From Nereocystis luetkeana (lineage: Eukaryota > Sar > Phaeophyceae > Laminariales > Laminariaceae), in assembly GCA_031213475.1 (NCBI GenBank), contig JARUPZ010000002.1, positions 3,658,001-3,722,000 on the forward strand: DNA of 64,000 nucleotides, given 5' to 3'. The position numbers were made by a program, and so were the translations under genes. This document shows, piece by piece, positions 38,319 to 64,000 of the stretch (its first letter is position 1; every line of letters starts with the position of its first letter). Below the pieces are notes generated by a model. That model had not been told where the DNA came from. It saw nothing but the letters and a program-made list of their open reading frames with translations, and ran no database searches.

Positions 38319-41300
38319 TCACGCCGACAGATGGTCCCCTCCAGTAACGCTAGCCACCGCTGCCACCGTCGCCGCCGCCACCGACGCCCCCACGCCTCCC
38401 CCCTCCTCCAGCTGCCCCGTCCCCACGGCCTGCCGACGCCTCCTCGGCGGCGAAACCCTAGCTTCCTCCCCAGCCTCAACGCCAACACGTGGCGCCGGCG
38501 ACACCGGCGACCCAGCACACACAGCTTCGACCATACGCTGACGCCTGCGCTGCTGCTCCTGCTGCTGCTGCTGCCGCTCCAACTTCTGCTCATGTTTCTT
38601 GGGGTTTTGAGAGGTGACCTTGGCTCGCGTCATGACGGCGCGAAGCCAGGGGTGGGAGAGCATCTGGTGCGCGGAGGGTCTGTCTTCCGGGTCTTTAGCG
38701 AGAAGGCGGCGCACCAGGTCCTTGCCCTCCGGAGAGACGTGGCGGATGCCCGGGGACTGATTTGAGGGAGAGGGGGGGGAGAGACAGAGCGAGGGCGGTT
38801 GCACGGAGACTGATTGAGGGCGAGGGCGAGGGAGGGTTACTATCGCCCATTTGCAGCAACACGCGCGCCGTAAGACTTGGAAGGATGGAATACCCCCCCG
38901 ACAGGCATGCCTGTCGGCTATTGAAAGTAGGCGGGTCGACAGAAGTGCCGCGTGGCATCGTCTCCTTATGCGATTTTTTTTTTTTGTTTCTCCACAAATT
39001 CCTAAAAAAATTTCACGTACTCTTCAAAAACACTAAACATGCCACGTACTCGTACCAGGTATTACATAAATACGAAACAAAACAACCACTCCTCTTGGTG
39101 TCGGAAACCAGCCACGCCACCAATTACTAGCGACATTTTCAACACAGCAACTTGAACCCCCCCCCCTTAACCTGGCGTAAAAAAAATGGTAAATATCAAT
39201 AGGAACACCTCTCACCCTGAGGTCCGGTTCTTGCTCGGAGAGCCTGCGCGCCACCTCTGCTTCTGAGAGGTTAACGCTGGCACCAAAGGGGTGTCTCCCG
39301 GTGAGGATAACCCACATCACCACGCCCAAAGCCCACATGTCCACCTTTTCGTCAACCGCCTGCCGAGTAAGCACTTCCGGGGCACTGCAGCGAGACATCA
39401 AAACGGGGAGGCGGTGCAAGGGGGGAGAGGTGAGAGGCGGTGCGATCCTCCTAGGGACACACATTTATTTAGCAATGCTTAGAAAGATGAAGATACGTCA
39501 GCTGTGCGATGAAAAATTCGGTCGAAACTTATCATGCATTTTATCAAGCCTGTTACCTGATACCGTATGTATTAGTCAACAACCGCCGTGAGGCAATATT
39601 TCAGAATCGTCACAATACGTTTGGCCTTGAAACCCTGGGGGGGGGGGGGGGGGGATGCAAAAACAAACATCTCGGTGTTTGGTTACGTGCAAGTCGTAAC
39701 CCTGTTTTTATACGACGAGAGATATATTGCGACAAGCCAACAAAAACGCGCTGCAAATTTACGCATGTATGTACGTACGCATCCTCCCTCATGCACAACA
39801 CAGTAGCGTATCACGTCACACCTGTACGCGACGGTGTAGTCTCGAGCGGTGCAGATCTGTCGGTGCTGCATGAAGGCTGACCCGAAGTCCGCAAGGCGCA
39901 CCTCGGGGACGCGATCGTCATCGCCCACAGCTGGACAAAAAAAAAAAAAAAAAAAAAAGAGAGAAGGAACAACAACAGTAGCGGGCGAAGGAAGGGAAGG
40001 GTGAGATGTATGCTTAACACCATTTCGCATAGCAGTCTCGTTTTGGGGACAAACCAGTCGAATTCTAAGTCTGTCTCCAAAGCGGGACTGCGGTCCTAAA
40101 AGGGATAGTAGCACATCGTATTAATAGTACGTGTATCCAACCCAGGAAACATGTTCCCGATCCCCCACAGATTATACGGCTCCCGCCCTGGATCGTGAGC
40201 TAGATCATACAGATCATACAGATCATACAGATCATATGTCTGCCCTGAAACATCTAAATGATCAACCCTTTTAGGGCTGCAGTCCCGGTTGGGGAACAAA
40301 TTACTTAGAATTTGACTGGTCCGTCCCCAAATTGAGACTGCAGTCCTACAAGGGTCAAGTACGGGAGGCGACCAAACCGGCAGCAGACCAGCCCACCATC
40401 ACTATTACGGGGGACCATAGTTAACAGGACCTACGGTACATAAAAAACCTATATATTTCCCTACTTTTACTAACAATATTTGGTCCTACTTGTTATGGTC
40501 CCCCCCGCAATACCAACACCTACCGCGCGTATGATGTGACACGCTAGCGATGGCACAACCGCGGTCCATCTCGACGAGATGCTGTTCCCAAGGTCGCCAT
40601 TTCGGTTCGTTTGCGCTACGCCTCCTCTGGTTATGAAAACCGTCGGCTCTGAAACTCGCCACAGACGGCGTGTCGTCTTGCATGCTATATATAATAATAC
40701 CTGGTACAGTATTAATAATGTTAATAACGCCTCCCCTGGATACGGAAAACGTCGGCTCTGAAATTCGTCACAAGAGGGTGTGTTGTCTTGCGTGCTATAT
40801 ACAATACAGTATGATTAATGTTACGAAGCAACGCCTCCCCTGGCTATGGAAAACGTCGGCTCTAAAATTCGTCACAGAAGGTGTGCTGCCTTACTCGTAC
40901 ATGTTACAGTGGGATATTAAAGCTATAATGAACCAACAACGCACAACATGCAACAATAAAAAAACATACTGGTACACGACGCGCGATAAATGAACAACAA
41001 CCGCACACCCGTCAGCACACCTACATCGTCACCCTCCAATCAACCACGATAATCAGAAACAGCATCAACACGGCAGGCAATCAGAGAACTAAGGGCATAA
41101 TGACCCCACATTGAAACAAGATTGGGAAACTCCCGCAGGAAGGTCTATCTCGCTCTCCTCCCTCTTCCCCTCTCCCCCCCCTCTCCTCTCACCGAGCATG
41201 ATGTTCTCGGGTTTCTGTCGTAGTAGCCGCAGCACCAGTAGCAGTAGCAGCAGCAGAAACAGCAGTGCCATTCGGCAACACAAGAATCACCACCGCGCAA

Positions 41301-44300
41301 CAAGCGTGACAAAAACGAGCCGACAACGTCAGCGATAACATCGCGGGCATCCGTGTGGTAGGGATGGGGGAGGGGGGGAAAAGAAAACCGAGAGGGCGGT
41401 ACAGGCAGACGAAAAAAGGAACGAAGCGTACGATTAATCCAACAGGACAACATGGTGCAAATATTAGCTTGAAACACACCAACACTCCAATGCTCCGGCC
41501 TGAACCAGGTCACCACAGCGCAATTCCCCCTCAAACAGCCTTGCCTAATATTTGGGCGCCTAGATCTGAAAAAAAATGTCTTATTACGGGGGACCTTAAT
41601 AAATACCAGGTATGGCCTACGGTATACCTGGTACACAAAAACCTATACATTCACCTATTTTCTTTAAACAATATTAGGTCCCATTTACTATGTTCCCCCG
41701 TAATAGGATCTCAAGCGAATCAATCTACGCTTTGACGGCGAACGAACAACTAGTCTTCCAACAAAAAATAGGCGCAACCGACGATATGCTTGTGAGGCTT
41801 TCATCTGTGGACATGCCAAATTCGGAAACAGACAAGAAGGCGCACGTACCAGGTCGAAGTGCACGATTCCTTTACGATGGAGGAAGCCTACCGCCTCCGC
41901 CACCTCCGCCATGATTCGCGCCGCCTGGCCTTCCGAGTAACGCCCCTGCGGAACGAATCAAAACCCAAAAAATTTACGTGAGTTGACCAATAGAAACCGC
42001 CGCCGGCGTTGGGGTATGACGCGAGGCGAAACACGCCGCATCGACCAGCACATCTAGACAACATATCCGGGCTGGATGGAGACTAGACCCATGCCGGCGA
42101 AAAATCTGAAGAAAAATCTGACAAAAAAAAAATTACAAACTATAAAGCGGGCTCGTCGCCGTGTTGCCGAGACAAAAAGCAGCAAAAGAGCGAGAGAGAG
42201 AAACATTAAAACAGGAACGGAATCGGATCACTTTCACGTGTTGCACGTCACGTGAGGCTGGTCGCTTAAGAAAAAAAAAGAAAAGAGAAAAACCAAAACC
42301 GAAACAAAGTATATAGAACAAGAAAACAACACACAGCCGAAATAATTTCAAAATAAATAAAAACCTAAGAAAAGAAGAGAAAAAACATGCAAGCAAGAAA
42401 AAGAGTGTGTGGGGGGGGGCGGGGGGGGGGGGGGGGGGGATCGAGCGAGCGAAAGAAACAAAATAACTAGGAACAAAAAAAAACTAAACAGAGCCAAGAC
42501 CAAAAGGTAGAAAGAAAGAAAATAAAAAATAAAAAATAAAAAAATGAGAAAACCCTACGTACGTACCTTGTCGGCCAAGCGGTGGTACAGCTCTCCACCC
42601 TGACACATCTCCATGACGATGTAGAACGAGTCCTGGTCTTCGAAGAACGCCTGCATCGTGACAATGTTCGGATGTGCCCCCGCGACTTTGAGCATGTTGA
42701 CTTCCTCCATCACCTGAAAGCCGATAAGGTCAAAGCCGACACGGTAGACGATAGACGGTACAACAAGGTAGGTACGGTCAGGGAAGGGCACAGGAGTATT
42801 TTTGTGGTTGAAGTGTGGTTGAAGAGGCAAGGGCGTGGGGCGGGGGGGCGGGGGGGGGCGCGTACTGCTGTATGCACTGCTGTTCTGTGTGCAGAAAGCA
42901 ACGAGGGGAAAGGGCGTGCCGATTGTTCAGCCACACGTACGCACACACATCCAGGTAACGGAGATACCAGGTGGAACATATAATACATGCCGGGTATGAT
43001 AAATAAATGAATATCTACAAAGGTTGTTGTCATATGTCATGATATTTATAATTGATAAGATGCCCCGCGCCGAGTAGAGTACAGATAACAGGATGACGTA
43101 CGCTGAATAATCGGTCGTGCCGTGCCCAACCAACCACCACAACGTGGGCCGCCGCAATCACTACTGCTACTGCTGCTTCTGTGCTGTTGTACTGCTGCTG
43201 TTGCCATCACCACGTAGGCCGGTAAAAGTGACACTTCTATCGAAATATCATGATCTGCGCAAAAATGCACGTGCCGTTGTGGGTGTGTTCCTCACGTTAT
43301 AACCCTTTTAGGACTGGAGTTCCCATTTTGGGGACACTTCGCTGAAATTTCAAGTAGTTTATCCCCAAAAGGGGACTGCGGTTCTTAAGTGTCCGTGCAG
43401 ATTATGCAATCTTAAGAGATGCAAGCTCTGTGGTCACAGGTGAGAGATACTATTAAATACATCGTATTAATAGTGCAATAAACAGTACCTGGTCGACAGC
43501 GCTGCGGTATACATCTGTACAATGAGCAAACGATTTTTGATGTACGTGTCCCGCACAGACTGGAATACCGGATATAAATAGCATTGCACTACTATTATAT
43601 ACCTGGATGCACGTATATCTGGTAACATAGAACATGCTATTGATATTACTACTCTATGGATCGGTACCCTGACTGCAGAATATATCGCTGACACCCACGC
43701 AGATGCTGATAAAAAAATTAAGTGGTCGTTCCTCTTCAACCACGAAATCAACCCTGTCTCTATACTGCTGTATTCTGTATAGTGCCTACACGATGCCTAC
43801 GACCATGATGTTTTGAATACCATATAAAGCTACTGACTGCTGTAGTCCATACAGACAACAGCAGTACCTCGAACCTCATTTTAGATACCAGGTATATTTT
43901 AAATATATTTTAAATACCCGCCAGTTGAATTTTAAATGCTTTAAACGTCCGCCATATGCCGGGGAAAACCCCGATAAAAAACCCCGCGAAAGTAGCGAGT
44001 GCCAGGTACGTACGTATAATGTGAAGAACACACACACACACGTATAGCCCAAAACCATCCTCCATCTCCTGAAGCCGAGGGAACGCCGACTTTTTAGTGC
44101 AGTGCCCTCCAGCTCTGCACCAACAACACCCGCAGACACACTTGTTCTATACCTGGTAATATATTACACTAACCCTTTTAGAACCGCAGTCTCGCTTTGG
44201 GGACAAACCACTCAAATTTCAAGCAGTTCGTCCCCAAAACGGGACTGCGGTTCTAAAGGGGTTAATAGTCTTCGGTTGTTTGGTCTACTACTCAGGGATC

Positions 44301-47300: not shown

Positions 47301-50300
47301 GAGACATCATCAGCCAGTCGCGTTCGCGGTACGCAGACAGCTCTTGCACTCTCGCGCGGTACACCGCAGTACGCTTAACCCCTTCAGAACTCCATTCCCG
47401 TTTTGGGGACAAACCATTATATTTCCAAGTAGTTTGCCCCCAATTGTCCCCAAAAGGAGACTGCAGTCCTAAAAGGGATAACCAGAATGGTCGCTCTCAC
47501 CCGTGTCGTCCTCGCGGAGGTCGATCGCCGCATGTGCAGGCTTTCCGCGTCGCCCTCGACTTCCGGACGTAGAGAAGGTCTTCGTCGACCGACGCACCTC
47601 GGTAACAACGGCACCCAACGGGTGCTTAGCCGGACCCTTCCCAGCTCTGCCGCGTGTGCCTGTTTGTCGGGAAGCTAAACACGCAACAACGCGTGCTTTT
47701 TGCCCGGCGTGCCCTGGTCATTGGTTTCTCCCGCCCCCTGCTGATGTTCCCGCCTCCCCCCTCTTGGACACCCGAGGGCGAAAAGGTCCGCGTGGGATCA
47801 CGGTGCCATTGTGGAGCAGGGTCGTTGCACTATATATTCCTATTCAGATTGTGCCGCGTGTGCGTACGTAATGACGACCACACGACTCCACCCGCGACAT
47901 ACCATTGGAAAACATATCCAAATATCGAGAGTCGCTGAAAACATTGTGACCCTTGCAGCAGCAGAGTGCGTACGTAGAGCACACCAGTCGAATGTCGTAC
48001 GTATGATGCCTTGTACACCCGGTACGACATCAGCAGTATTAATAGTATTAATAGTACCAGTTTAGATGTACGAGATGTTTATGATTTGAGCGAGAAGCAG
48101 CAGTTTGTGGCATACCAGTGTCAGGTAATCGTCATTAATCGTCATGCCTCATGTCACGCCGACGAGTATACCAGTGTCATATGGGGAATGACTCAGCGAA
48201 GCGGATACTAAATACAACTACTGTATTAGTTTTTTCATGAATGAACACAAGCCCAGAAATCATATCGCCCTTACTTGACGTGGCAGTCAGCGACATTTGG
48301 TCCACCTGTCAGGACGTATAAAACCACTGGCAATTGCTTTGATCTCAAGAACTCAGGCAATCTCAGGGCTGACTATAAAAAAATATTACAGTAAATACCG
48401 TACGTCAGTGATCGAGAACACCTACATAAACGGGGGTAGGGGTGGGTGTGATTACCTATTTACCCTGGTTATCATTTGAGCTACAACTCTGTCGCACGTA
48501 CAGCAGTAGTATTAACAGCACCAGTGTGGATTGAAGTGCTTCTACGAAAGAGCGAAACGATAAAAATTTTAAAGAACAAACAACAGCTGTCAAGATTTCG
48601 TCGAAACTATCATCCCTGCAAGCAAGCTGCGTGATATTTCGATCGCGTACGAATTACGATATATATACGACCTCATGCTTCATGCTGCTCTGACAGAACT
48701 GGGCGTAGGGAAGCTATATACCTGGTATGAGAATAGCTGGCCAAATATATCACACAAATCTGATGCATTTCGAGCTTTCGCTTGCGCCGCGGGTCGTCTG
48801 TCATTTCCAACAAGCGGGTTCTAAGTTCCAACGTACACGCAACCCCACATATGCAGAACACAGCAGAGAGCAGATAGCAGAGAGCAGAGGAGAGCACTGA
48901 GGTCACGGGTTGAACACACACCCCCAAAGTTGACATTATTTATCGATTAATCGCCGCACCATCAACCAGCTGGCATGGACCAGCCAACGAACGACCAACG
49001 ACCAACGAGACTTATCTTGACCAAAGCAGAAGGGTTCGTTCGCACCTCTCCTATTAATATTATATTGATTGTTCGTGATGAAAAAAAACGACCGCGGTAC
49101 CTGGCACTATGTACATACAGCAACTTTTTTTTTTTTTTTTGCTCATCCCCTTTATCATCTTCGCACATCTTCTTCTTCTCTCTCTTTCCAACTCGTAACT
49201 CAGATCCGGGGTCACCTATTAATAGCAGGCTCTTCTACCCCCTTCCCGCTACGGTACGTGCCTTCATTTTTATCGCGGGAAGATTTTAGCCTTTTCTTCC
49301 CTCGTCGACTCGCATCGAATTGTGCCTACCCACGCTGCAAGGCGCTCTCAACAATTGAATCCTTTTTTATTTTTATTTTTGCAAATAAAGTCAAAGTCCG
49401 ACCCACCTGGGGCTCGAACCCAGGACTCAAACACAAGTAGAATTCGAGGTTAACCACTTGAACCACCGGGGCGACCGGCTGCTGGAGTTTATTTATCACA
49501 TCAACCGCTTTGTTAAGACTGCAATCCGGAGTTGAGGGTAAACTACTTGAAATTAGAGTGGTTCACCCCAAAAGCGAGACGACAGTCCTAGACGGTAGAA
49601 ACCGTTTTTTAACCCGCCGACGTCCAGCATACCCACTTTCAGTGCAGGTTGCCTCGGGTATATTTACCCCCCAAGATGTCAGGAGGCAGCATAAAAGCAG
49701 CAGTGTGCAAAGTACTAGTACCTACGCAGTGGACGGCGCTTTCACCCTTCATGCCTTCGCGCCCAGGCAGCACACCGTGAAAGCCAACGTCTCTTTGTTT
49801 CTTGCGTGATACTGGTATGTCAGGTTCGGTTATTATTAAAAGTGGAAGGCTCTTCGCAAAATTGCAGCCGGCTCATGTGTTTCATGTTGAACTCATGTGA
49901 AGGCATGTTGAAGGTCAATCGGCCCGTCAACCCTTTGGGCATCGGTCCACAACAGTAGTATATACCGATCGTAATAAGTGCGGGGGTTTAACATAAAAAT
50001 AAAAATACCCTGGGTATTGACAGTCGATGCTCTGGTACGGAGCAGCGGTTTGCGGGGAGGTCGGCAGGTCTGCCTGCTGCCTCGGCACATGGGATGTGCC
50101 AGGTAATATGCTTCTTACATCGCCCATGGTTCATCCCCCCTCTTGATAACAGACCGCCGATGCTAAACGAGTACGTACCTGGTACGAGTACGAGTACTAT
50201 GTACTGGTACGAGTAATAAGTCGCCTACCGTTTGTGTTGCTGCACCCAGTGAAAACAGTGGCACCATCATCACCAAAAATAAAATAACGACGGCTCGTTT

Positions 50301-51543
50301 TTTGTACGTACACGTACCTACCTACCTAGACAAAAAAAAAAAAAAGTGTTCTCGAAAAACCATGGGAGGGCCAATTTTCTATATCGTACCAAAAATAGAG
50401 TAGGCATACTGGAAATCATATCGAACAACGTACATGTCATGTATGATGCACGGATACGAGGTACCTGGTATGGTACACCGCTGTAGATTGTTCTTTTCTC
50501 TCTGTTGTTCCTGCCTCCCCCTCCCTCCCTCCTCCTCCTTCCTCCCTCTTCCTCACCTGCGAGCGGCTAGTCTCCGAGCGCAGCATCCTTTTCACCGCGA
50601 CCGGCTGTCCCGTCAGGCGGTGCGTGGCCGTCGACACGGTGCTCCGATTTCCTCGCCCCACCGGCTGCCCGTTGTTGTCGAAATCGTAAACGTCCGTGAT
50701 CCGCGCCGGCCCCTCCGGCTGCTGCTGCTGCTGCTGCTGCTGCTGCGGAGTCCCCGCCACCCCAAGGGACGCAGTCGCCGCTACCATCGTAGAGGTAGAG
50801 CCACCATCCAGCTTCATAGCTCGGAAGCTCTCCAGGTTTTTCTGCGCCCGGAAGTCATCTGCCTCAGAAGGACGGCACCGGTGGCCGATGCTGCCGCTGC
50901 TGCTGCTGCTGCTGATGCTGTTGTGGTCGGCGGCGCCGAGAGCACCACGTGCTACGGTAGCCCGGAAAGCACGGTGCTCGTGGCTGGGAGGAGACAACTG
51001 CCGCCTCTGCTGCTGCTGCTGCTCCTGCTGGGACGGCACGGGAGGGGTGGGCTGCTGAACGTGGCACCAGGCGGTATCATTTGACCTTCCGCCCAGAAGT
51101 CCACCCGATCCGCGACGGCCACCGCCCGTCTTATCGTGCCCCCACTCGTTCTCTCCTGAGTCGGGCGTCGCCGCGAACACTGCGAGGGCCGCCGCCGCGG
51201 CCGCGCCCCGACCTCCCGCCAAAAATTGTCCGCCCTCGCCCGTGCCAGCGCCAGCGCCGCCGGCACCGCTCGCGCCACCACGGCCACCTCCCAAGCCAAC
51301 CTCCAGCGCATCCCTTCCTCGGGCTGTCACGCACTTTGCCGCGCCGGAGGTGTAGCAGGCGCTCAACCCATCGGACGTGAGGGATCGCGATCTGCCACGA
51401 GTACCGCCAGCTGCTGGGCCGGAGGGAGATACTACGCGGAAGCCTCTGGTCATGCCATCGAGGCTATTGACGCGGGCGCGCCTGACGATGCCGCTGGCGG
51501 CCGTGGAGGCCCCTGCAAGGACAGCGGCTGCCGCTGAGCTCAT
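38319..51543 (-). CDS. CAMK-like serine/threonine protein kinase, 7 exons, 655 residues
   Basis: Exons: 51543-50557, 42713-42567, 41945-41850, 41214-41193, 39930-39822, 39384-39216 and 38756-38319 (TGA). Every join keeps phase (0,0,0,1,2,0), and the sum is exactly 656 codons. Residues 1-280 are Ser/Gly/Gln-rich with a run of nine Gln. The kinase domain spans about 282-548: GRGNRSTV loop (from 296), Lys318 in VAVK, helix-C Glu333, hinge VMEMCQGGE, catalytic loop HFDLKPEN (Asp409, Asn414), ADFG (Asp432), APE (455-457), DMWALGVVMW, and a final HPWL. HRD is replaced by HFD, so this is a non-RD kinase, though all catalytic residues are present. The C-terminal tail is Gln/Arg-rich then Ala/Gly-rich; no EF hands or calmodulin site was recognised. 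Its 7.8-kb first intron is packed with repeats. The start is the first Met of the open exon; an upstream exon cannot be excluded. Confidence 0.9.
40028..40108. mobile_element. MITE-2 copy (piggyBac-like), degraded
   Basis: Carries the family core CAGTCTCGTTTTGGGGACAA and the complementary right end CGGGACTGCGGTCCTAAAAG. Terminal TTAA is not preserved on the left. Intronic to the kinase. Confidence 0.75.
40203..40240. repeat. 10-bp tandem repeat GATCATACAG
   Basis: Four consecutive units of GATCATACAG (the last ends GATCATATG) in a kinase intron, between two MITE-2 copies. Confidence 0.85.
40266..40352. mobile_element. MITE-2 copy
   Basis: Starts CCCTTTTAGGGCTGCAGTCC and ends with the complementary CTGCAGTCCTACAAGGG. 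It is flanked by TCAA on both sides, a mutated form of the TTAA usual for the family. Confidence 0.8.
40405..40510. mobile_element. MITE-1 copy in a kinase intron
   Basis: 106 bp in the opposite orientation to the 10.5-kb copy, flanked by TA (40403-40404 and 40511-40512). The right end is mutated (CCCCCCGCAA). Confidence 0.9.
40619..40920. repeat. Three tandem units of about 105 bp
   Basis: Units start CGCCTCCTCTGG or CGCCTCCCCTGG at about 40619, 40729 and 40832 and share GTCGGCTCT, TTCGTCACA and GTGCTATATA. Unit 1 contains TACCTGGTA where unit 2 has only TA (AATACAGTA). Intronic to the kinase. Confidence 0.85.
41584..41703. mobile_element. MITE-1 copy carrying two extra 7-bp insertions
   Basis: 120 bp, flanked by TA, instead of the usual 105-106. 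The excess is explained by two 7-bp insertions, each turning a TA of the family sequence into TACCAGGTA (41604) or TACCTGGTA (41625). Removing them restores an alignment of the right length. Intronic to the kinase, between the 22-nt exon and exon 3. Confidence 0.9.
42405..42560. repeat. Poly(G) run and A-rich tract beside kinase exon 2
   Basis: Two adjoining runs of 9 and about 19 G at 42411-42439, followed by an A-rich stretch (AAATAAAAAATAAAAAA) up to the exon's donor. On the transcript strand this is T-rich then C-rich intron sequence. Confidence 0.8.
43301..43392. mobile_element. MITE-2 copy
   Basis: Left end ACCCTTTTAGGACTGGAG, right end GGGACTGCGGTTCTTAAG, with the conserved middle TGAAATTTCAAGTAGTTT. 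Located in the first intron of the kinase gene. Confidence 0.8.
44173..44261. mobile_element. MITE-2 copy, well preserved
   Basis: 89 bp with terminal repeats CCCTTTTAGAACCGCAGTC and its near-perfect complement at the right end, flanked by CTAA on the left and TTAA on the right. TTAA duplication and CCC-starting ends are piggyBac hallmarks. Intronic to the kinase. Confidence 0.88.
44500..45076 (+). mobile_element. hAT-like non-autonomous element, 577 bp
   Basis: Terminal inverted repeats TAGAGTTGCACCCCG (15 bp) are flanked by CAGTATAT (44492-44499) and CAGCATAT (45077-45084), an 8-bp duplication with one mismatch, as hAT elements make. Inside are about three tandem units of 70-95 bp (GCCGCCGCTCAAAC, then AAAGGGGAGCAAA) and many GGGTACCCGG palindromes. 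No transposase. A 578-bp inverted relative sits at 60005-60582. Both lie in introns of minus-strand genes. Confidence 0.85.
45165..45488 (+). CDS. Small basic ORF of unknown origin
   Basis: 107 codons from ATG, starting MPKKNRSASAKKSTRTTG, very basic at first, with a Cys-containing middle (MCHLVRMSVCSLGCGAE). It lies inside the first intron of the kinase, on the opposite strand, just before the long inverted repeat. It may be a relic of a mobile element; I recognise no family. Confidence 0.25.
   Translation: MPKKNRSASAKKSTRTTGVPQGKEACNGGRVKGSNAARRAAVSMCHLVRMSVCSLGCGAEASGLYRVTSQPLFNPSSHMETLVVCAPRRPRPNATPPFRMYANDGKP
45680..47795. repeat. Long inverted repeat, arms of about 1 kb
   Basis: Left arm about 45680-46690, right arm about 46735-47795, spacer about 45 bp. 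Matching words include CACACGCGGCAGAGCTGGGA (about 45800) with its complement at about 47638, GAAGTCGAGGGCGACGCGGA with its complement at about 47555, and AGGTCGCGAGGTGTTG with its complement near 46870. Similarity is high along the arms with scattered small indels. Degraded coding frames run outward-in in both arms (FQADLAA-FFKA) without a known domain. A CRVC...CPAC pattern near 47660-47720 faintly recalls a piggyBac C-terminal zinc region. A MITE-2 copy interrupts only the right arm. Confidence 0.85.
47379..47477. mobile_element. MITE-2 copy inside one arm of the inverted repeat
   Basis: Flanked by TTAA at 47375-47378 and a mutated ATAA on the other side. The matching place in the left arm (about 45980-45990, CTATTTAACAGC) is an empty TTAA site, so this insertion post-dates the arms' duplication. 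Confidence 0.85.
49126..49475 (-). mobile_element. SINE-1 copy (tRNA-derived, poly(A))
   Basis: About 350 bp on the minus strand. The head has a polymerase III A box (TGGTTCAAGTGG) and B box (GGTTCGAGCCCCAGG). The body contains TTGACTTTATTTGCAAA and TCTTCTCGCGATAAAA, and the 3' end is poly(A) (T15 at 49126-49140). This copy has TATTAATA at 49217 where the other copies have TA. Confidence 0.88.
49508..49592. mobile_element. Degraded MITE-2 copy
   Basis: Recognisable by AACTACTTGAAATTAGAGTGG and the complementary CAAAAGCGAGACGACAGTCC, but the ends have decayed. Confidence 0.55.
50717..50746 (-). repeat. CAG trinucleotide repeat in kinase exon 1
   Basis: CTG repeats on the plus strand encode a run of nine Gln (CAG) in the kinase's N-terminal region. 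A second Gln-rich stretch lies at about 51010-51033. Likely length-polymorphic. Confidence 0.9.
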
Positions 51544-53092
51544 GTGTTCCTTCCCCTACGAGGCCTATGGGAGGTTCGGTTTTGGATTCAGGCGGGGAGG
51601 GCAGGTGGTGGACCGTGGTTGCTCGGTGTTTGTCGCGTGGGGTCGGATATCAGCAGCTCTTTTTTTTCGCGCGGAAAGTGATGGGAATGATTGAAGGTCT
51701 CTTGCGTGGCCTGTGGGAAAAAATGGGGAAAAAGCGCGAGATTTTTGGGTGAGCCGCGACGGTGACGGCTGACTGCTAGAGCTGGCTAAACACAGTAGTG
51801 CGGCATGCTCACCATACCACATTGTTCGTGGCGCACCAAGAGGTTGTTGCAATCGCTTGCAGTTGGCTTCAATTCGCGAAGTTGAGTTTTCTCTCACCTT
51901 CTATCGCTATGATGCCTTGCTTGAAAATGAGAGAAATACTTCAAAGAACAGAACAAGGGGAGACAGAATTCCGCGACAACTAGAGCAACACAGGATGAGA
52001 CTCACTCGGTAACGATGCAATGAAGTATCAGCCCTTCGATGGTGATATGTGTCCAAGCCTTTCCGCAAGTTACGTGTATTCTCCGTGATGTGTTCCAGCT
52101 TGTGCTCCGGCGCGTGCACCCGAGCGAGCCGAGAGCAAGATGTTTATGGTAGTGAGGCATGTTTTGAAAGGGCCACAAACAATAATTTCCCCGGGACGGA
52201 ATCATATCTTTCTTTTATTATATCGATCTTCGTAAAAGTGTCAAAAACGTTGGACGGCTGGACGGCATGGCGGGCAAATCATAGCTGGAAGAACGTATTT
52301 TGCTCCCTGATGCTCTGCTGCTCTGCTGCATACCTTGCGTGGCCTATGGCCTATGGCAGTCTGTACGAGCGGTGGTCAAGCGGGCATTGCACGGCAGTCG
52401 GGCCATATGCCTACGTGGTCGGAGTTTTGAATTCCAATGTTTTCCCTTCTTCTTCAGAATCTGTAGAGCTGTTTTTTTACCGTTCGTTTTGCTTCCTGTG
52501 GGCGTTTCGATTGGAATGGTTGATCTTTCTCTGATTTCCTGTTTACTTGCATCTATCCGCGTCGTCAGTCCCCATCTATATCAAGAAAATAAAACGAACG
52601 CACGAACCAAACGAACGAAAATTTCCTCGAAACTCATCCCTGCGAAAAGCTTCGTGTGATAATAATCCGATCGTCGTGTTTTTTTTTTTCTGCCCCGGAC
52701 ACTGCGGAGTAGAGCGAGAGGAGAAACCCCTGTGTCCACACTTACTTACTTATTTCTCAAGTTTTCGTGTATACCGGTTCGAACCCGGTTCGTTTCTTCC
52801 ACCTTTCTTTCTTTGTCGGGCCTGTCTGTGTGACCGTCATTATAGTGTGGTTTATACTCCAAGGATGTAGGCACCTGACTGAGTCTATTTAGTAAATATC
52901 TACCCCGACTCAGGTAAAACCCCTCACATTATTAGTCTCCCCACAGCTTTTGGTTCAGTACACGAGTCACCCTACCCCCGTCTGGGCGTTGTCGTGTTGT
53001 TTGTGTGGTGTTCAGAGATTTTTTTTCAGAGCCGTCTAAAAATTATTATACTATTAATTAATACTGGTATATACTACCAGGTAAAAGCCGAG

Positions 53093-53316
53093 CGGTCGCC
53101 CCGGTGGTTCAAGTGGTTAATCGAATTCTACTTGTTTGAGAGTCCTAGGTTCGAGCCCCACAGGTGGGGTCGGACATTTGACTTTATTTGCAAAAATAAA
53201 AATAAAAAGGATTCAATTGTTGAGAGCGCCTTCCAGCGTGGGTATTAATAGTATAGGCACAATTCGATGCGAGTCGACGAGGGAAGAAAAGGCTGAAATC
53301 TTCTCGCGATAAAAAT
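53093..53316 (+). mobile_element. SINE-1 copy, 3' truncated
   Basis: Starts CGGTCGCCCCGGTGGTTC, has the A box TGGTTCAAGTGG and a B box region GGTTCGAGCCCC, then the family body to GATAAAAATGAAGGCAC. It stops short of the poly(A) end. At 53243 it has TATTAATAGTATA where other copies read TA. Confidence 0.85.
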
Positions 53317-53645
53317 GAAGGCACTATACTACTACTCGTAGGGGTCTCGCTCTGCTCTGCGGCAAGAAAAAAAAATCAGCGTGAATTCCAAACCAATATA
53401 TCATCACATACATCATCACAATTTAATGTTATAAGACAACACGCACACAACACCTGCGGCGGGCGGCGTTTTCTACGCACAAACCGTGGTGGTTGTACCC
53501 GCTCGAAAGAAACACAGTTGGCCGTAAAATACTACCAGGTACTGTTGTACAGCCTACAGGATATATCCTACAGCCTACAGGAAGGATATTACTCCTTGTT
53601 GTGCCTGGTGCACCTGGTTGCGTGGGTTGTTCCAGCAGTATATAC

Positions 53646-53990
53646 GGTGGTTCAAGTGGTTAACCTCGAATTCTACTTGTTCGAGTCCTGGGTTCGAGCC
53701 CCAGGTGGGTCGGACTTTGACTTTATTTGCAAAAAAAAAAAAAAAAAAAAGGATTCAATTGTTGAGAGTGCCTTGCAGCGTGGGTATAGGCACAATTCGA
53801 TGCGAGTCGACGAGGGAAGAAAAGGCTGAAATCTTCTCGCGATAAAAATGAAGGCACGTACCGTAACGGGAAGGGGGGGAAAGAGCCTGCTATGTGACCC
53901 CGGATCTGAGTTATACGAGTTGGAAGGAGAGAGAGAAGAAGATGTGCGAAGATAATGAATGGGATGAGAAAAAAAAAAAAAAAAAAAAAA
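53646..53990 (+). mobile_element. SINE-1 copy, full length with poly(A)
   Basis: A box at about 53649, B box GGTTCGAGCCCCAGG at about 53692, an internal A-run, and a terminal A20 at about 53970-53990. About 345 bp. At two TA sites it reads TATA (GGGTATAGGCAC and GAGTTATACGAG) where the 55.3-kb copy has TA. Confidence 0.9.
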
Positions 53991-54353
53991 CGTCGTACGT
54001 ATGCTCGTACCACTTTTGTTTGGTTTCACTTTCTTTCTTCGAAAAAATGCGCGGGGGGACGAAAAAAATGGGAATAAGAATCGAATACAACAACAATGCG
54101 CGTTGTTACCAGTTGCCAGCAAACGTCAAAAGGTTTGGCGTGGGGGGTGGCGTGTACATACCTATACCAGTATAGCCGCATGACTGCAGTGTAATGATAC
54201 TGCCTTGAGTGAGTTTGAAAGCCCGGTAATTACCTGGGGTTCAGGCACTGGGGGATCGTATTTGTAGTACTTGGAAGGCGCCTCTTACGTGGAAAACCGG
54301 GCTTTCCGGAGAGGCACGAGCTTGGTCTCAGTCTCCACCGTGTGAGGGTCTTA

Positions 54354-54458
54354 TTACGGGGGGCCATAGTTAACAGGACCAAATATTGTTAGTAAAATTG
54401 TTTAAACATACAGGTTTTTATGTTTACCATAGGTCCTGTTAACTATGGTCCCCCGTAA
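54354..54458. mobile_element. MITE-1 copy
   Basis: 105 bp, near-perfect terminal inverted repeats, flanked by TA on both sides. It sits at the outer edge of the tRNA-like foldback. Confidence 0.93.
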
Positions 54459-54474
54459 TAGTCCGTTGGGCTAA

Positions 54475-55922: not shown

Positions 55923-57228
55923 GGCAGTGTTATACTGAAGAGGAGATAAACCTGTGGCGGATGTACTATTAATATATACAACCTTGGGAAGAGCAATCGG
56001 ATTCGTATCTAAGACGTCACTCTCCTACTAAGGGCCCATCTTATTGAGGATTTTTATTACATTTTTCCAATATGTTTTTATTTCTTTATTTCAGTTTAGT
56101 TTGCATCTGATTGGCCGAAGAGTGAATCACCAAGCAGGCATGCACCCTGAGTAAGGTCAAAATTAAAAAAAACGAATCGGAGCGTTGGGATTTCAGTACC
56201 GATAGATAGGATTACTTCATCATTTCGAGTTTTTCGCTTGGTGTTAGTATACCCCCTTCCCTCTCTAGCTCTCGAACATGTCAATCGTGTGGCGTTTTGT
56301 TTTGTTTTTTCGCGCTCCCCTGGGTCGACACTACATATTGTACCTGGTATGTGTATACAGTAATAAATACCATCTACACAGAGAGACAGACGCGAAAATA
56401 GAAAATAGAAACGCCTCCTCACATCGCAGAAATTGCGTTTTGAGTTACAAAACAAAGTGAAATAAGAACGGGACGGAAGAACCCATCGCAGCGCAAAGTC
56501 CGTCCGGAAACGATAAAATGACAGCAGTATTGTCGGGAGGCAGACGGAATAAAAAATACATGATACTCCCAAAAGCATCCGCTCGAAAGGTTCTGCCCGA
56601 TCCCACCTTTTTCAGCGGTGCAATACGTACAAGATACAGTAAATCCAACACGAAAATAGAATACCTGGTAGGCTCCACTTGATACTATTTTTTTTCTTGT
56701 ATTGGTCATCTGGCCATCTGACAAACCTGCAGCGAAAACGTGAAATGTTCCATAACAAATACAATAGTGACGACGAACCCTCGAAGAAAACAGTCGCCAA
56801 CATCGTACATTTTACACCTGGTACATTGTACGCACAAAAGTCCATACGGTGTTGAAACACGTTGTATTTTGTTCTGGCGCAACCTCGAGACGTCGTAGCA
56901 GGAAAAAAAAAAAAAAAAAAAAAAAACGCCCAGAAAACGGGGGAACATGAGAAAGAGAGAAAAGAGATATCGTGCGGGTCATCACCTCCTGCAATGGCAG
57001 CAACGACGTAGCTCCCACATGCTCTAAAATCACCAACAACAACAACAACAGATTATTCGGTTGGCTTGGCTCTATCAAAAGCTCCGCCCAACACCAGCAT
57101 CAACCAGCACGCACTAAAGTTCTCCCGCCCCCCCGCGCCCCCCCCCCCCTCCTCTTCCCATTCCTGAAAAACCCAAATGAACAACAGCGGTGACGAAAGA
57201 GGCCGGCCCGGCGACACCAACCAACACA

Positions 57229-60200
57229 TCAGTACCGAAACACTACCCCAAGCTCGCTCCCCGCGCCGAGCGACTCGTACGCCGCCTGGGCCCCTTCCAG
57301 GCTAGGCGACGACGTCGTCAAGAACTCAGACGGGCGAAGCTCTCGCACGAGGGCCCACGCCGCGGCAAAACGTCGGTCTTTGTCCCAGCGATCCGTCATT
57401 CCCGCCTGCAGCCTGCTTACCTGCGGCCGGGGAGCGTGCGGGTCGGTGGCGGGGTTATAGGCTAAAGCGCGGGGTGAGGTGCGGGGAGGGGGTACTGAGG
57501 TTTTGCATGGCCGTAGTCGCATGACCATAGACCCTCGCATCCGTACATACCGCGACGGACCACGTCGGGTTTTCACCGACCAAGAGCTCGCGAGGGAGGG
57601 GTGGGGGGGTGTACTCAATAGGAGAGATGTACTCGATATCATGCATGGCCGTAGTCGTATGGTGGGAGGGGGTAGTGGGGCGGGTATGGGGGGATAGAGA
57701 GGGGGGGGCGGGGGGGCGCACTCATTTGGTGCTTGCCTTAGTCGTTTGACCATCGATAACGCACCCCTTTCGAGCCGGAGCACCGTTCCTACTCCTAATA
57801 GAGACACCTCCAACAATTGGGCGCTCATTACGTTGTTTCCATATATTACATATAATTTTTTGCTAGTCTCATCCCCTTCCTGTTTGGCCGCCTGTGGCCA
57901 CCATCTATCTCCTGGGATATCAATCGTTTTCTCTCGCTGCTATCTAGTGTATCGAACTCCTCCACGTCACATTCGTCTATTTCCCCCACCTCCTCTTCTA
58001 ACACATCCCGTTCCTCCTTGTATATCTCACGTTCTCCTACTATGTGAGTCCTACTCTCTATTGCTTTGCCACACGGGCACATCTGTGCATCTATTTCCTC
58101 CTCCTCCCGGCTACTGGTATACCTCTTTCTTCTTTCTGGCAGGTCCTGGTCACCTACACGAAAGCGCAGTTTCAGCGTTTTCGCGAAGTCCATTGGGCCG
58201 TGCAGACACGTTTTCATTCCTATTCCTTCCCTCAATCCCCCGTATATCTCTAGGTGTTTTTCCGATCCCACCTTGTTTCGTAGCGCTAATCTTTCCCTTA
58301 TTTCTATCCTTTCTTCTACTTTTGCCTTGTACTTCCCAAACTTCCCGGCGAACATCACCTCTTCTTGGTTTCCCCCTGTATCCTTCCATACTTTCTCAAC
58401 TACGCTATCTCACCATATTCCAGCTCGCCCTTTCGTTACTTTCTCCTATACAGATCTATCAACTATGGCAGGCAACCTCTTCTTTGGCATGTTCCTTACT
58501 TTATATTGTCATTTCAACTTTCCCATATCTCTATTTGTCTTGAGTGGGTGGGTGGGTGGGTGGGTGGGGGGGGGGGGGGGGGGGGGAAGGGGCAACGAAA
58601 GGAGGTTCATCAGCGGAACGACCCACCTCGTGCTTCTGAGCGGAGGAAGAAAGAAGGTCTTCCGTTGGGAGGGGTGTTTTTCCGCACACTCGGTCCCCGT
58701 GCGACACGCGAAATCGGTCCGGTCAAGGTCGGTCTACTATAACTCTTGAACATAATAACACTGATACCATGGTGGGGTGTTAAGTTTCTTTGAGCGGGTT
58801 GGTACATATTCGTGAGGTACTACGTAGTCATATGTTTTGTTTCAATGCATTGGCCATATGATGGGGTGCAAGACGTTATTCCAACAGACAAATGGAGCGA
58901 GTCTTGCCGTGTGGGGCCATATACCCAGGCTGCGGTCCAACCAACATCGATGCTGGGGCTTGTGATATTGCGGTCCAACAACAACAGCACCTACAACCCA
59001 CCACAATATGACAAGCCATTCGTTGGAAAGCGGAAGTCGCCTTAAGTCCTGGAAGTTACAGCATGACAGGGTTCAGGTGTTCATCATTCCCGTCTCCACG
59101 CTCCTGCCCCCCCCCCCCCCCCTCTCTGCCTGGTCGGTGAAAACCCGACGTGCTCCGTCCCGGCACTGTAGGGATGCGAGGGTCTATGGTCAAACGACTA
59201 CGCCCATGCACGATAATGAGTACCCCCCCCCCCCCCCCCCCCACCTCTCCCCGCCGTAAACATCCCTCAATAGTGCCTCCCCTGTTCGGCAAGACTTGCC
59301 TGCGACGTCTGCAGGGTGAGATGACTCCTGTGGAATGACATGCCGAGGTTAAGCTTGGCGGCCCCACCGCCGTACCACGATCCCAAGACGACACGACCGC
59401 CGTACCCTGTCAAATCGAGCGCCGACTTGCGAACACGAGCAAAGCGTGAAAATAAAAAGAACGGCGCCGGACCAGTCGGACGCCGGTGAAGAGACGGAAG
59501 GAAGAGGTCGAGAAAGAGGGAGTGAAAAAGGAGGGGGCGGGGGGGGGGGGGAGGCGACAGGGGGGGAGACAGACAGACAGACAGACAGACAGAGATACGA
59601 ACAAACAGACAGACAGACAAGACAGACAAGGCAAACAAGACAGACACAGACAAGACAGACAAGACAGACAAGACAAACACAGACAAACAGACACAGAGAT
59701 AGAAAGAGGGGGTGATAAAAAGGTTATCCGTCGTGCAACAACCCGTGCGAAACGCCTTCCACCTACGGACACCCTTACGTGCAGCAGCCCACGCACCAAA
59801 CAGCTTGCACGTTAGAGGTACCAGCAGCCGGCCGGCCCTATCTCTGGTCGATTGCAGAGTGCTGTTCGTCTGCACGTGACCCCCCTCTCCTCGTACTTGT
59901 CTTCTCGGCGCCAATCACACACTCAACCAAAGGAAAAATAATTTCGGTTGCGTGGTCGCTCAATAGATATGCGCGGCGAAAGCTGGACGGCTCTCGCTCT
60001 ACAATAGAGTTGCGCCCCGGCCTCAAAATTTGGAACCGGGTATCCGACCGGGTGGGGAGGGGTCGAGGCGGAACCGGAACCGGGTACCCGGGTACCTGGG
60101 TTACCATACACTATTTGCTCCCCTTTTAGGGTGTGAGCGGGGGCGGGTGAGGCGGATACGGGTATCTGGGTACCCGTGTACCCGAGTACCCGGGTTACCA

Positions 60201-63200
60201 TACTCTAATCGCTCCCCTTTTTGCGTTAGAGCGGCGGCGCGGTAAGGCGGACACGGGTACCCGGGTATCCGGGTTACCATACACTAGTTGCTCCCTTGTA
60301 GCTTTGGAGCGGAGGCGTGGTAGGCAAGGCAGGTATCAATGGGGCATTCGCTATTCTCGGTCTGTAGGCTGCAGGGGCGAGAGGCGAGAGTCTAGAGGCA
60401 CAGCCGCTGGAGTGTAAATCAGCGTATACCCCCGTCTTGTGGCCTCAGTATAGCACAATTGACAGGTACCCGGGTACCCGGGTAACCCGGAGTACAAATA
60501 CCCGCGGTTCCGTGAGTTGGACCGGGACGGTTCCGGTTCCGACGCGGGTACCCGGTTCTCAGTCAGACGGGGTGCAACTCTACTCCAAGTTCCCGGAGGT
60601 GTTTTAGTCTAAGGAGGCGGGGGCGGAGGCGGAGGCAGGACGAAGACAGGGGGGGAGACGGCCATTTCTGACGCCGCCATTGCCAGTGCAATGGGCACGA
60701 TCGATGACGACAAACCGACTTCCAAGAAAGAGCTCTTGGGCGGTCGATGTGGGGAGAGGGGTGTAAGTACGACACTCTGTCCCCCTCTCCCACACTAGCA
60801 ACGCCTCTTCGGCGTGGCATGGCCTCCTCAAACGCCTCCGGTGTTCCGGTGAACCCCCCCGCGCCCCCCTCCCCCGCGCACTCCCGCTTCCCATACACGA
60901 ACGAACTAAAACCTTGCAGCAGCCGGTGTAATTGCGAGTTGTCTCACCTGCAGGCCCCTGGGGTTGCCGGTGACCTCAAGGGATATGTCAAACGGTGCCA
61001 ATCCCGCCGCTTCACTCGGTGTAACCGCCGCCGTAGCTCCCAGCCTGTGCCCACCCCGACCCAAAAAATACACAAGACACACCAACAAAGGGAGAAGGCG
61101 GGAGAATCGATCTAACATGGAGATGAAGGCAAAGGAAGGTTTCAGAAAAGGAAAGAGGTCGCGTCAGCAGGGCCACGAAATAAGCGGTACCGCCTCCACA
61201 TCCCCCCCCCCCACACACACACACAGCGGTAGTACCAACGCGCATCTACCAGCGCCAACACGGCTCTACCAAGCCCCTCGACCAACCCCGAACTCAAAAC
61301 GCTCTGGACGGATCTCCCCGATCCCCAAGGATACGTGTACAACATCGCACATCAGCGGCCGACGCCATGCTATAACTCCTAAATTACACACCAGGTATGG
61401 GCACTGTAACTGCACTGATATTCGAGGAGATGCGCCCGCCGTCCGCCCCGTGACAAGGAAAAAGTTGTTTGCCCACGCGGTCACCGCTCAACGTCACGCC
61501 CTGACATGTCACCTCACGCCACGCCACGACACGTCACTTCACGTCATATTGCGTCAAATTGCTTGACGCCACGTCCCCCTGACGTCACCGCACGATATGC
61601 CGTGTCCATTTCATGTCACTTCACGTCACTGTTTTGTCACCACATGACACGTTAGATGTCCCGTCAAGTCGCGCCACGTCAATGTCATGTCATGCCATGC
61701 CATGCCGTGTCACTTCATTTTATGTCATATGCCACAATAATTGTGCGCCATACCACTTCACGTCACTTCATTTCACGTACCGTATCCTCACCACGTCAAC
61801 ACATGCCTCGTGGCGCATCACGTCCCGCCACTTCACGTCACCATATGCCATGCCACGCCATGTCACGTCACCTCGCATGACGTCATGGCACGTCAAATCA
61901 CCTCACGTCACTCCGAACCACTCTACTCGCCTCCAATTCAGTCCACCCCACATCACTCCATGCTACGTCACTTGACATGACCGCATGCCACACCATGCCA
62001 CATCGCTTCACTTTACGCCAAGTCACATCATTTCACGTGACACCAGGTCGCGGCATGTCACGTCATGTCACGTCATGTCACGTCACGTCACGTGGCGTCA
62101 CGTCACACCAACGTCACTTCACTCAAGACCACCCCACCTCATTTCGCGCAACGCCACTTCGTGCCTCGTCACTTGACGTCACCGCATGACACTTCTTAAC
62201 AGGTCAACGCCAGTTCACTTAACATCGCCGAATTCCCTGCCACGTGGCGCCACGTCACGCCCCGTCACGCCCCGTCACATGGCGGCACAAGGCACCGCGC
62301 CAAATTACGTCACCTCAAGTAACACCTTGGGCACAACCCTATCCCCTCCCACGCATCAGCACACCAGATAAAAAGCATACCAGGTACAATACCATGCGTA
62401 CGAAGGGCATATACACGAAGTACCACGGATATACTTTCATCAGCAGAACAAACACACACACACATCACATCGTGACACGTTCGTTCAAACAGGCACCACC
62501 GACTACCGAGCAGCGTCGACTGTCTGTCTACCGTGTAACCCAAAATGACATCCATAAAATGACCGGCAGGTCTTGCGGAACGCGTCAAAGCCAATGCAAG
62601 CCTACAGTATAACAAGATTCAGTCCAAGGTGGCCATCAGTGCAGGGGTCATACCGCCGTCTGCAAACTACCTTCATAGAAGATCATTTCTCACCGTTCGG
62701 ACACCCTGAGCCTGTCGGGAAGCATGTCTACCGCCGCCACTGATCCCCCTCCAACCACTCCGTGCGTCTTGGCCAAGATGGCGACCGCCAACAGCCTAAC
62801 CAAGGCAGGACGAGGCGGAAGCGCGGACAGGCAGAGAGCGGGGTGGGGAGAAACGGCCGTTCGCCTCTCTCCCTTTCGTGTGCGCCTCCGTTCATCTCAT
62901 AAAACGTTGCGCCTCCCACGACCGCGAAAATAATACGAAAGTCACGCTGTACCCTCACTCCATGCACCGCAAACAGCAAACACAAACAAACACACAAAGG
63001 AAGGAGGGAAAAGAGAAAACAACACAAGACACGCGAACGAAAAAAAACACAACCAAGAACGAACGAACGAGCGAACGAACAAACGAACAAGCGGGAGTCT
63101 GGAACAGAAAAAAAAAAAACGAAAAAAGCCGACTGCAAAAAAAGAAGAGCAAAAGACGAAAAACGAATAAAGAAAATCGAAAAAACAAAAAACAAAAAAC

Positions 63201-63424
63201 GAAAACATATAAACACAAACGAAAATCAAAAAGCAAAAATCGACAAAACGAAAAAAGGAGAGATGGCGGGCGCTGCATGGTACTTGGGAGGCAGGGGGCA
63301 CTGACCCAATCATCCCCTGCCCGAAGACGGCGACGCTCTCCCCGATCCTGGGGTGCACGTCGTGTACGAGCGAAAGCGCTGTCTCCACGGCGGGGAGGTA
63401 AACCGCGTCTTCGGGGTCGATGCC
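57229..63424 (-). CDS. Medium-chain (zinc-type) alcohol dehydrogenase family, C-terminal 211 residues
   Basis: A predicted NAD(P)-dependent oxidoreductase; substrate unknown. Exons: 63424-63306, 62795-62694, 61044-60948, 59425-59300 and 57420-57229 (TGA). Splice phases (2,2,0,0) agree at every join. The sequence reads VYLPAVETALSLVHD, then the Rossmann signature GQGMIG split by an intron, AAVD at the end of the second strand (an acidic residue suggests NAD preference), FDISLEVTGNP, GYGGRVVLGSWYGGG, LTLQTSQ joined to VSRL, and a C-terminus ending GVVFRY. This order is diagnostic of the MDR superfamily. The catalytic GroES-like half must lie right of the window. The 59300/57420 intron starts with GC. 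Introns contain a LINE end, a hAT-like element, satellite and poly(C). Confidence 0.85.
57485..57690 (-). mobile_element. LINE 3'-tail fragments with poly(C)
   Basis: Two or three minus-strand tails (GCATGGCCGTAGTCGTATG-type) that each pass into GTAC and then C-runs (G on the plus strand), arranged in series before the larger LINE copy at 57716. They lie in the dehydrogenase's last intron. Confidence 0.75.
57716..58540 (-). mobile_element. LINE copy, 5' truncated
   Basis: The last 270 or so codons of the same LINE as at 4.6-7.9 kb, mostly open on the minus strand (FGKYKAKVEER, LRFRVGDQDLPERRKRY, CPCGKAIESRTH). 5' truncation is normal for LINE insertions. It ends on the minus strand in GAGTGCG followed by C7-G-C8, another poly(C)-type tail. 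Confidence 0.9.
58543..58586. repeat. GGGT/poly(G) tract
   Basis: GGGTGGGTGGGTGGGTGGG followed by about 19 G, adjacent to the 5' end of the truncated LINE copy. Confidence 0.9.
59130..59243 (+). mobile_element. LINE 3'-tail fragment, plus strand, with C19 tail
   Basis: CGGTGAAAACCCGACGTGC, GGGATGCGAGGGTCTATGG and ATGCACGATAATGAGTAC run directly into about 19 C. Same family as the tails at 27.8 and 57.5 kb but in the opposite orientation. Confidence 0.8.
59566..59700. repeat. ACAG tetranucleotide / ACAGA microsatellite
   Basis: GACAGACAGACAGACAGACA and interrupted relatives over about 135 bp in the intron between the exons at 60948 and 59425. Confidence 0.9.
60005..60582 (-). mobile_element. 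hAT-like non-autonomous element, 578 bp
   Basis: Inverted relative of the 44.5-kb element. It has the same TAGAGTTGCRCCCCG ends, internal GGGTACCCGG palindromes and tandem AAAGGGGAGCAA-type units, and nearly identical length. The flanking octamers (CTCTACAA and CTCCAAGT) match poorly, so the duplication has decayed. Confidence 0.8.
61490..62310. repeat. CGTCA-word satellite, about 800 bp
   Basis: CACGTCAC, CATGTCAC, CACGCCAC and CCATGCC words recur continuously, with one cluster of CATGTCACGTCATGTCACGT at about 62056-62090. The period is not fixed (5-10 bp), so it looks like a degenerate pentamer/decamer array. It lies in the intron between the exons at 62694 and 61044. Confidence 0.85.
62970..63260. 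repeat. A-rich CGAAC/AAAAC tract
   Basis: Simple sequence of AAACAAAC, GAACGAACGAACGAGC and AAAAAACGAAAAA over about 290 bp, between two dehydrogenase exons. It produces long chance frames on both strands. Confidence 0.8.
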
Positions 63425-63821
63425 CTAAAATAAAAAGAAACAACAACAAAAGAAACAAAAAACACCAAAAAAAAGACCGCCGCGGAGCGCGAAAAAAATA
63501 CCGGCGGCATGGGTCAATCAGTCCGAGCGGTTGTCTTCTTCGCCATCGCAGTAACCCTTTGGAAACCCCGAGACCCCGAAGTTGCGACCGAAAAGAAAAT
63601 ACCCGAGGTACGAGTTTGGTTCATCAACCATCCACGACTATTGATAGTAGCTAAATAGCTCCCAGAAGTGCGGGGGTGCAGGGACCACGCCGCGCCCGTG
63701 TGTGTATATGTGTGTTCTTCGCATTGGGCCGGTCTGTCTTTTCCCGTCCACATCCAGCACAACCGGTGTCCGTGCCGGTTCTTCAACCCTAGACACGAGG
63801 TACACGTTAAGTGGTCACAAA

Positions 63822-64000
63822 AACTACGGAACCATAATTGATACCTGGTAGGACCTATGGTATACATAAAAACCTATATATTTCACCATTGGGGGACCAT
63901 AGTTAATAGGACCAAATATTGTTAGTAATGGTTAATTACGGGGGGCCATAGTTAATAGGACCAAATACTGTTAGTAAAAATGGTTAAATATATAGGTTTA
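63822..64000. mobile_element. Cluster of three partial MITE-1 copies, cut by the window edge
   Basis: A partial copy (about 63825-63889) with TACCTGGTA at 63842 in place of TA is followed by the head of a second copy (GGGGGACCATAGTTAATAGG, 63890-63934) and the head of a third (from 63936 to the window end). The order suggests serial insertion or rearrangement of the same element. Confidence 0.8.

Follow-up and report, generated by a model that had tools for sequence, protein, structure and literature searches.

Palindromic TACCWGGTA words in the genome of the kelp Nereocystis luetkeana are probably excision scars of a TA-targeting DNA transposon lineage

Transposons that insert at TA dinucleotides are the closest described systems to the subject of this study, the palindromic word TACCWGGTA (W, A or T), which is exceptionally common in the genome of the kelp Nereocystis luetkeana. 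We analysed a 64,000-nucleotide stretch of contig JARUPZ010000002.1 (assembly GCA_031213475.1, positions 3,658,001 to 3,722,000 of the forward strand; hereafter the window, with positions counted from its first letter), together with additional stretches and pattern counts from the entire assembly. Mos1-like mariner elements share the TA target, and their ends begin with CCAGG, the same five letters that are enclosed by the two TAs of the kelp word. In PMC7827188 and PMC4378557, Sleeping Beauty is described as generating 3-nt 3' overhangs and leaving the footprints TACAGTA and TACTGTA, and the transposases of both Sleeping Beauty and mariner as cutting three nucleotides inside the element (PMC7827188). 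As in Sleeping Beauty and Tc1, the target of the kelp insertions is TA, and terminal bases may be kept between two TAs (PMC4378557); as in Sleeping Beauty, identical overhangs may anneal around a central mismatch and yield a centre of A or T, an annealing scheme that represents our reading. Unlike those of Sleeping Beauty, the kelp scars keep five bases instead of three, occur naturally at hundreds per megabase, and form doubles and triples, and neither a transposase nor a resident element was found for them here. The proposed five-nucleotide stagger also differs from the three-nucleotide cut of mariner elements (PMC7827188), and the mariner domain Transposase_1 had no match in our searches.

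In another brown alga, Ectocarpus, Mariner-Tc1 elements make up 17 families that together have almost 12,000 copies, and the elements and their miniature inverted-repeat transposable elements (MITEs) are numerous there; the words "footprint" and "excision" are absent from the main text of the same paper (PMC12477816). Among the open-licence papers in PubMed Central (PMC), we found none that mentions TACCWGGTA as a word, none that reports such scars among the footprints of TA-targeting elements or of brown algae (the other papers on footprints concerned known transposon tools), and none on conservative transposition.

The enrichment of TACCWGGTA was confirmed. The window contains 27 exact copies (the original prediction had counted 26), compared with a mean of 0.40 and a maximum of 3 in 100 shuffled versions. 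Across the assembly (465,085,209 bases in 1,987 contigs), the word occurs 182,395 times, or about 392 times per Mb, compared with 1,744 occurrences of the reversed control pattern; this is not a count of independent events, because some scars were inherited with their repeat. With the density of TA estimated from a 264-kb sample, which comprises the window and 20 hand-placed stretches of 10 kb (ten on contig C1 and one on each of ten other contigs), about 0.7% of all TA dinucleotides would carry the word. All sequence compared amounts to less than 0.1% of the genome.

The 264-kb sample contains 83 sites, 43 with A and 40 with T at the centre. With both strands included, TACCAGGTA occurs 83 times where a trinucleotide model predicts 2.4, whereas the corresponding words with C or G at the centre occur 7 times each (2.4 expected), and the next-best word of the form TA-N5-TA reaches only 8 (0.5 expected), leaving none that is comparable to TACCWGGTA. 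The concern raised with the original prediction, namely that most copies might belong to one longer conserved repeat, did not materialize: the commonest 6-mer following the motif accounts for 12 of 275 oriented contexts, and it is the 6-mer of a repeat family (MITE-1) whose copies had been added deliberately. TACCWGGTA is not part of one longer repeat, and its contexts are many and unrelated.

That the word is an insertion is most evident from paralogous sequences. We applied a strict test that demanded ungapped flanks, skipped low-complexity flanks, and compared 83 scar sites and 935 control words of the form TA-N5-TA with about 0.35 Mb of sequence. A paralogue lacking exactly 7 bp, with plain TA at the site, was present for three of the six scar sites that had any paralogue, a small number, and for 4 of 101 control words with a paralogue. 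Each of these four controls (W:41618, L031:9123, L039:6496, and L050:2953) lies 7 bp from a scar and is the same insertion seen in a shifted register. The remaining 77 of the 83 scar sites had no paralogue in the strict test, a number that includes sites skipped for low-complexity flanks. One repeat family includes a double scar across which the five best-matching of its other members measure 13–16 bp less (e.g., 291 versus 305 bp at 93% identity), and lower-ranked copies range from 19 bp fewer to 7 bp more. The word thus arose by the addition of 7 bp to TA, and it did so in many unrelated contexts. Plain TA in paralogues opposite TA...TA in scars agrees with the target of Tc1/mariner elements and, although no filled site came to light, suggests that TA was duplicated on insertion; a 3-bp TNA duplication of the PIF/Harbinger type was not found, as the 27 sites in the window share only TA across both sides and the next letters vary. 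One of the sites on which the original prediction was built is less simple: the motif at 40698..40706 (TACCTGGTA) does lie in a tandem repeat of about 110 bp, namely in its first unit, and the second unit lacks not 7 bp alone but 10 bp at this point (the 7-bp unit and three more).

The insertion is also recorded in MITE-1, an element of about 106 bp with the ends TTACGGGGGACCATAGTTAA that is very abundant throughout the genome. In the window, the copy at 41582..41705 (plus strand) carries two scars, TACCAGGTA at 41604..41612 (the left hot site of MITE-1) and TACCTGGTA at 41625..41633 (plain TA in five matches of the strict test), another copy carries TACCTGGTA at 63842..63850, and the copy at 6536..6644 (plus strand) has plain TA at both sites of the first; further copies are located at 22645-22747 and 54352-54460. 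The three scarred positions were predicted correctly, with plain TA in other copies of the alignment. Throughout the genome, MITE-1 copies have either TA or TACCWGGTA at one and the same position, and both A and T occur as the centre; 20 of the aligned copies were chosen by their similarity to a scarred copy, which biases the proportion of scars in this alignment. A less biased proportion comes from the 19,021 genome-wide matches to the MITE-1 core with up to 28 inserted bases (both strands and both ends counted), 391 of which (about 2%) have exactly TACCWGGTA. The two ends of MITE-1 have a common core and carry either TA or AA at positions +6/+7, and it is the side with TA that holds 85 of 100 listed scars compared with 44 of 97 listed plain sites (a hand count, with the plain sites all from C1, after three non-TA rows were dropped, and the scars from C1 to C8). 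The p-value would overstate the strength of this contrast if some of the MITE-1 scars were inherited.

A symmetric target preference is also apparent outside MITE-1. After removal of flanks that are themselves scars, W followed by A occupies positions -7/-6 in 71 of 154 scar flanks, compared with 3,648 of 27,582 flanks of other TAs, and WA is present on both flanks in 15 of 71 scars (318 of 13,942 among all TAs). A T at position -1 is avoided (12 of 154 versus 5,266 of 27,582). Moreover, the scars stack. Double scars (TACCWGGTACCWGGTA) occur 15,917 times genome-wide (control, 2), equivalent to 8.7% of the single scars, and triple scars 1,689 times (control, 0), equivalent to 10.6% of the doubles. 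Simple arithmetic with the number of doubles and the share of TAs that carry a scar indicates that the TA ends of scars have been targeted at about six times the rate of an average TA, which is in line with the target preference.

The insertions were apparently precise when made and have since decayed. The two-ended variant TACCWGGCCWGGTA, which should result from fill-in and blunt joining of both ends and is the only imprecise join that was counted genome-wide, has only 27 copies with mixed centres, for which reason it was also dropped as a clue to the end sequence of the element. Variants of the scar with one altered base number 104 in the 264-kb sample where about 55 are expected in sum, corresponding to a change of about 7% per base. 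An independent estimate of about 6.8% per base follows from the 18,415 forward matches of a scar extended by CCWGG, of which 15,917 are complete doubles.

The scar, in our view, probably results from the excision of a TA-targeting cut-and-paste DNA transposon lineage that resembles Sleeping Beauty except for a 5-nt stagger. The element would insert at TA, favouring the context (W)A-N5-TA-N5-T(W), and would duplicate the TA. On excision, the transposase would cut each end with a 5-nt stagger and leave the same overhang (CCAGG or CCTGG) on both flanks; the overhangs would anneal by four G:C pairs around an A:A or T:T mismatch and be ligated directly, and mismatch repair would then set the centre to A or T, turning TA into TACC(A/T)GGTA. 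The palindrome with its A/T centre would arise because identical 5-nt overhangs pair at four of five positions, and the precision of the scar because sticky-end closure is efficient. Such closure would compete with repair from the sister copy and make the jumping mostly conservative, and few residents would remain beside many scars, which accumulate over time, because the gap is not refilled from the sister copy. We infer the length and polarity of the overhangs, their ligation, the conservative copy number, and the agency of a transposase from sequence alone. The form of the scar would fit the retention of terminal bases of a putative element between two TAs that is typical of Tc1/mariner elements. 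The original interpretation as an excision footprint is partly supported: the insertion at TA, the unrelated contexts, and the symmetric target are as expected for the scars of a TA-targeting cut-and-paste element, and the closure of 3-nt CCA overhangs is replaced by the 5-nt stagger.

Several results weigh against an excision scar, and the first group concerns the source element. The expected full-length element with CC(A/T)GG ends and an IS630/mariner transposase did not emerge from our sequence and profile searches. No resident element with TA-CCWGG inverted ends at most 3 kb apart was found in the 264-kb sample, nor was any CCWGG-ended element found when 30 overlapping 3-kb loci were added (up to 0.35 Mb of the 465-Mb genome). 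A search for insertions of 20–6,000 bp relative to paralogues returned MITE-1, a second MITE, a 1,088-bp element with CGAG ends, and a few others, none with CCWGG ends, and one-sided extensions of TACCWGG did not reveal an element in the sequence compared. Among ten one-sided tandem scars (from the matches listed, all on C1), nine show a TA with one base changed and the other has GT; two of the nine are paralogues of each other in inverted orientation. These nine reflect point decay, and resident elements at such sites must therefore be rare. At the protein level, a coarse exon-by-exon search of the genome yielded no match to DDE_3 among 30 candidates scored and none to Transposase_1 among 3 candidates scored, the control genomes being equally silent for Transposase_1.

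The pogo/Tigger-type transposase domain DDE_1, by contrast with these domains, has 28 matches in the genome. The DDE_1 gene on contig C35 has no inverted repeat in 2.5 kb of flank, and the gene on C18, which was considered as a source because of a TACCTGGCCAGGTA located 3.4 kb away, was rejected, as the two stretches read contain no CCTGGCCAGG that could serve as its partner end; each of these genes represents one of the 28 matches. Five other matches (G000 C2:7920664, C809, C872, C1099, and C1378) have the same score, the same span, and three TAG codons, and four of them are located on small contigs; they are either recent copies or duplicate contigs.

It is possible that a CCWGG-ended element persists in low copy number elsewhere in the genome. 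A more far-reaching scenario, which we put forward only tentatively and with somewhat less than even confidence, is that very low-copy TA transposons with self-complementary 5-nt ends jumped conservatively over a long period and left some 10^5 scars and hardly any residents, with sister types whose ends are palindromic or nearly so (TTAA, CCGG, CTAG, and CGAG) behaving likewise; scars would then stack because they become preferred targets themselves. DNA transposons are usually counted by their remaining copies; in this genome, the jumps documented by scars would by themselves greatly outnumber those of any resident family. The ratio of excisions to copies, the target preference, and the repair bias would become measurable from one genome. 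Because a 7-bp insertion shifts reading frames, scars at this density would be a notable source of mutation, and since they are short, dated by their decay, and easy to score, they could also serve as markers of brown-algal strains and species.

The failure to find a resident element despite the extreme abundance of scars, and the near-absence of the blunt two-ended variant, would also be expected if the 7-bp unit CCWGGTA were copied directly into TA, either from an end fragment bound by a transposase or by templated end joining, without any long resident element. We consider such direct insertion improbable, because an A/T-centred palindrome with a mirrored target preference is what two identical transposon ends predict, and no mechanism is known to us by which an invariant 5-bp palindrome would be introduced directly into TA.

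The second group of results at odds with independent excision events concerns the way in which the copies are related to each other. Scars were in part inherited with their repeat: the site L033:9046 has five and L040:8154 has seven matches that carry the scar as well. In an earlier paralogue test, which aligned sequences more loosely, scars (5 of 16 "empty") and controls (64 of 216) could not be told apart; it was replaced by the strict test because its gap costs were judged too lenient. A few TA-bounded words that are shorter or longer likewise have paralogues with plain TA, for example 7 of the 656 words with a single inner base and 4 of the 526 with six, as ordinary indels would produce. 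Among 59 listed doubles, which include two overlapping pairs, the centres are identical in 40 (29.5 expected), AT in 14, and TA in 5 (p ~0.006), and the centre classes of 50 listed triples are distributed 15/22/7/6 (p ~0.004). Similarly, the centre base of 100 listed MITE-1 scars is skewed in the orientation of the element (T 65, A 35). The non-random centres point to biased mismatch repair or to the origin of some copies by duplication of the unit.

Such duplication leads to a further alternative, in which most scars go back to a few original ones that were multiplied by repeat amplification and slippage of the 7-bp tandem unit. The excess of doubles with the same centre, the scars common to some paralogues, and the excess of T in MITE-1 would all be accounted for, but most of the sampled scar sites lack a paralogue in the strict test, their contexts are diverse, and slippage can yield neither single scars in unrelated contexts nor stacks with mixed A and T centres. 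We give this explanation little credence as the main source of the scars.

Far less likely still is a conserved binding site for a protein or a chromatin site that was spread by selection. In its favour are the palindrome and the symmetric flanks, which binding by a protein dimer would yield too, but in MITE-1 and other repeats the word has been added to a plain TA, and it occurs in arrays with mixed A/T centres and in many unrelated contexts, and decays, as the excess of one-base variants documents. The original prediction had stated that it would be weakened by the lack of a matching element combined with such a function; the element was indeed not found in the sequence compared, and the insertion alleles and the stacked copies argue against a binding site. 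Ciliates excise TA-bounded segments with very uniform junctions, but a programmed elimination of germline segments from the sequenced tissue is highly improbable as the origin of the kelp scars, because they decay like old, fixed sequences and because no division into germline and somatic nuclei is known to us from brown algae.

An excision scar remains the preferred interpretation of TACCWGGTA, and other TA-bounded words indicate that it may not be the only kind. In the masked 264-kb sample (both strands), TATTAATA, which has TTAA between the TAs, occurs 80 times where 3.0 are expected; it was noted at 53243 and 49217..49224 in the window and at 43 places in 264 kb, and for 49217..49224, four matching places have plain TA, which makes it a putative second kind of TA scar. 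Also enriched are TACTAGTA (28 versus 3.7 expected), TACCGGTA (30 versus 8.0), TACGAGTA (41 versus 8.4), and TACAGTA (84 versus 34.2), as well as TATATATA and words of the TACTAC type, both of which resemble simple repeats. The comparison that revealed plain TA for TATTAATA gave no such match for the other words of this list. A resident TA element is present in stretch L032 (1134-2221), where a TA-flanked insertion of 1,088 bp with the inverted ends CGAGCTGGGCCGGGCAAG is absent from the paralogue in L031 and contains no open reading frame of at least 90 amino acids wholly inside. Like the putative source of the scars, it has a TA target and inverted ends; it differs in the sequence of these ends (CGAGCTGG at the TA), which would leave a 4-bp scar and whose first four letters match the enriched words TACGAGTA and TACTCGTA. 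The scars may stem from several TA elements whose ends are self-complementary, with different types of scar now coexisting.

In the window, five scars are in contact with words of this other type. TACCAGGTA at 20412..20420 directly adjoins a TACTCGTA word at 20404, whereas TACCAGGTA at 20896..20904, TACCTGGTA at 22452..22460, and TACCAGGTA at 39053..39061 have a TA in common with TACGAGTA at 20903, TACGAGTA at 22459, and TACTCGTA at 39047, respectively, and TACCTGGTA at 50176..50184 is stacked with TACGAGTA words at 50183, 50189, and 50208. The arrangements at 20404-20420 and 50176-50215 have the appearance of nested scars that two elements left at one TA. The other exact matches are TACCAGGTA at 8126..8134, 12667..12675, 35307..35315, 43886..43894, 53075..53083, 53533..53541, and 62378..62386, and TACCTGGTA at 11633..11641, 17828..17836, 20587..20595, 21009..21017, 34133..34141, 35265..35273, 44150..44158, 48719..48727, 50462..50470, 56341..56349, and 56662..56670.

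A link to viruses was considered and rejected, as 9 stretches of a viral collection contain a single double scar each, which we judged to be chance. The window also encodes a protein fragment of 170 amino acids (57849-58358) that is similar to 534 proteins, which, among the best 120 listed, stem almost exclusively from ENA contigs. One listed relative is labelled Hyphomonas oceanitis SCH89, a record that probably represents algal contamination; a scan of prokaryote genomes gave nothing confirmed for this fragment. Finally, a sulfotransferase fragment in stretch L044 is 99% identical to an ENA protein and 63% to a protein of Laminaria digitata, and its weaker named matches are from Ectocarpus.

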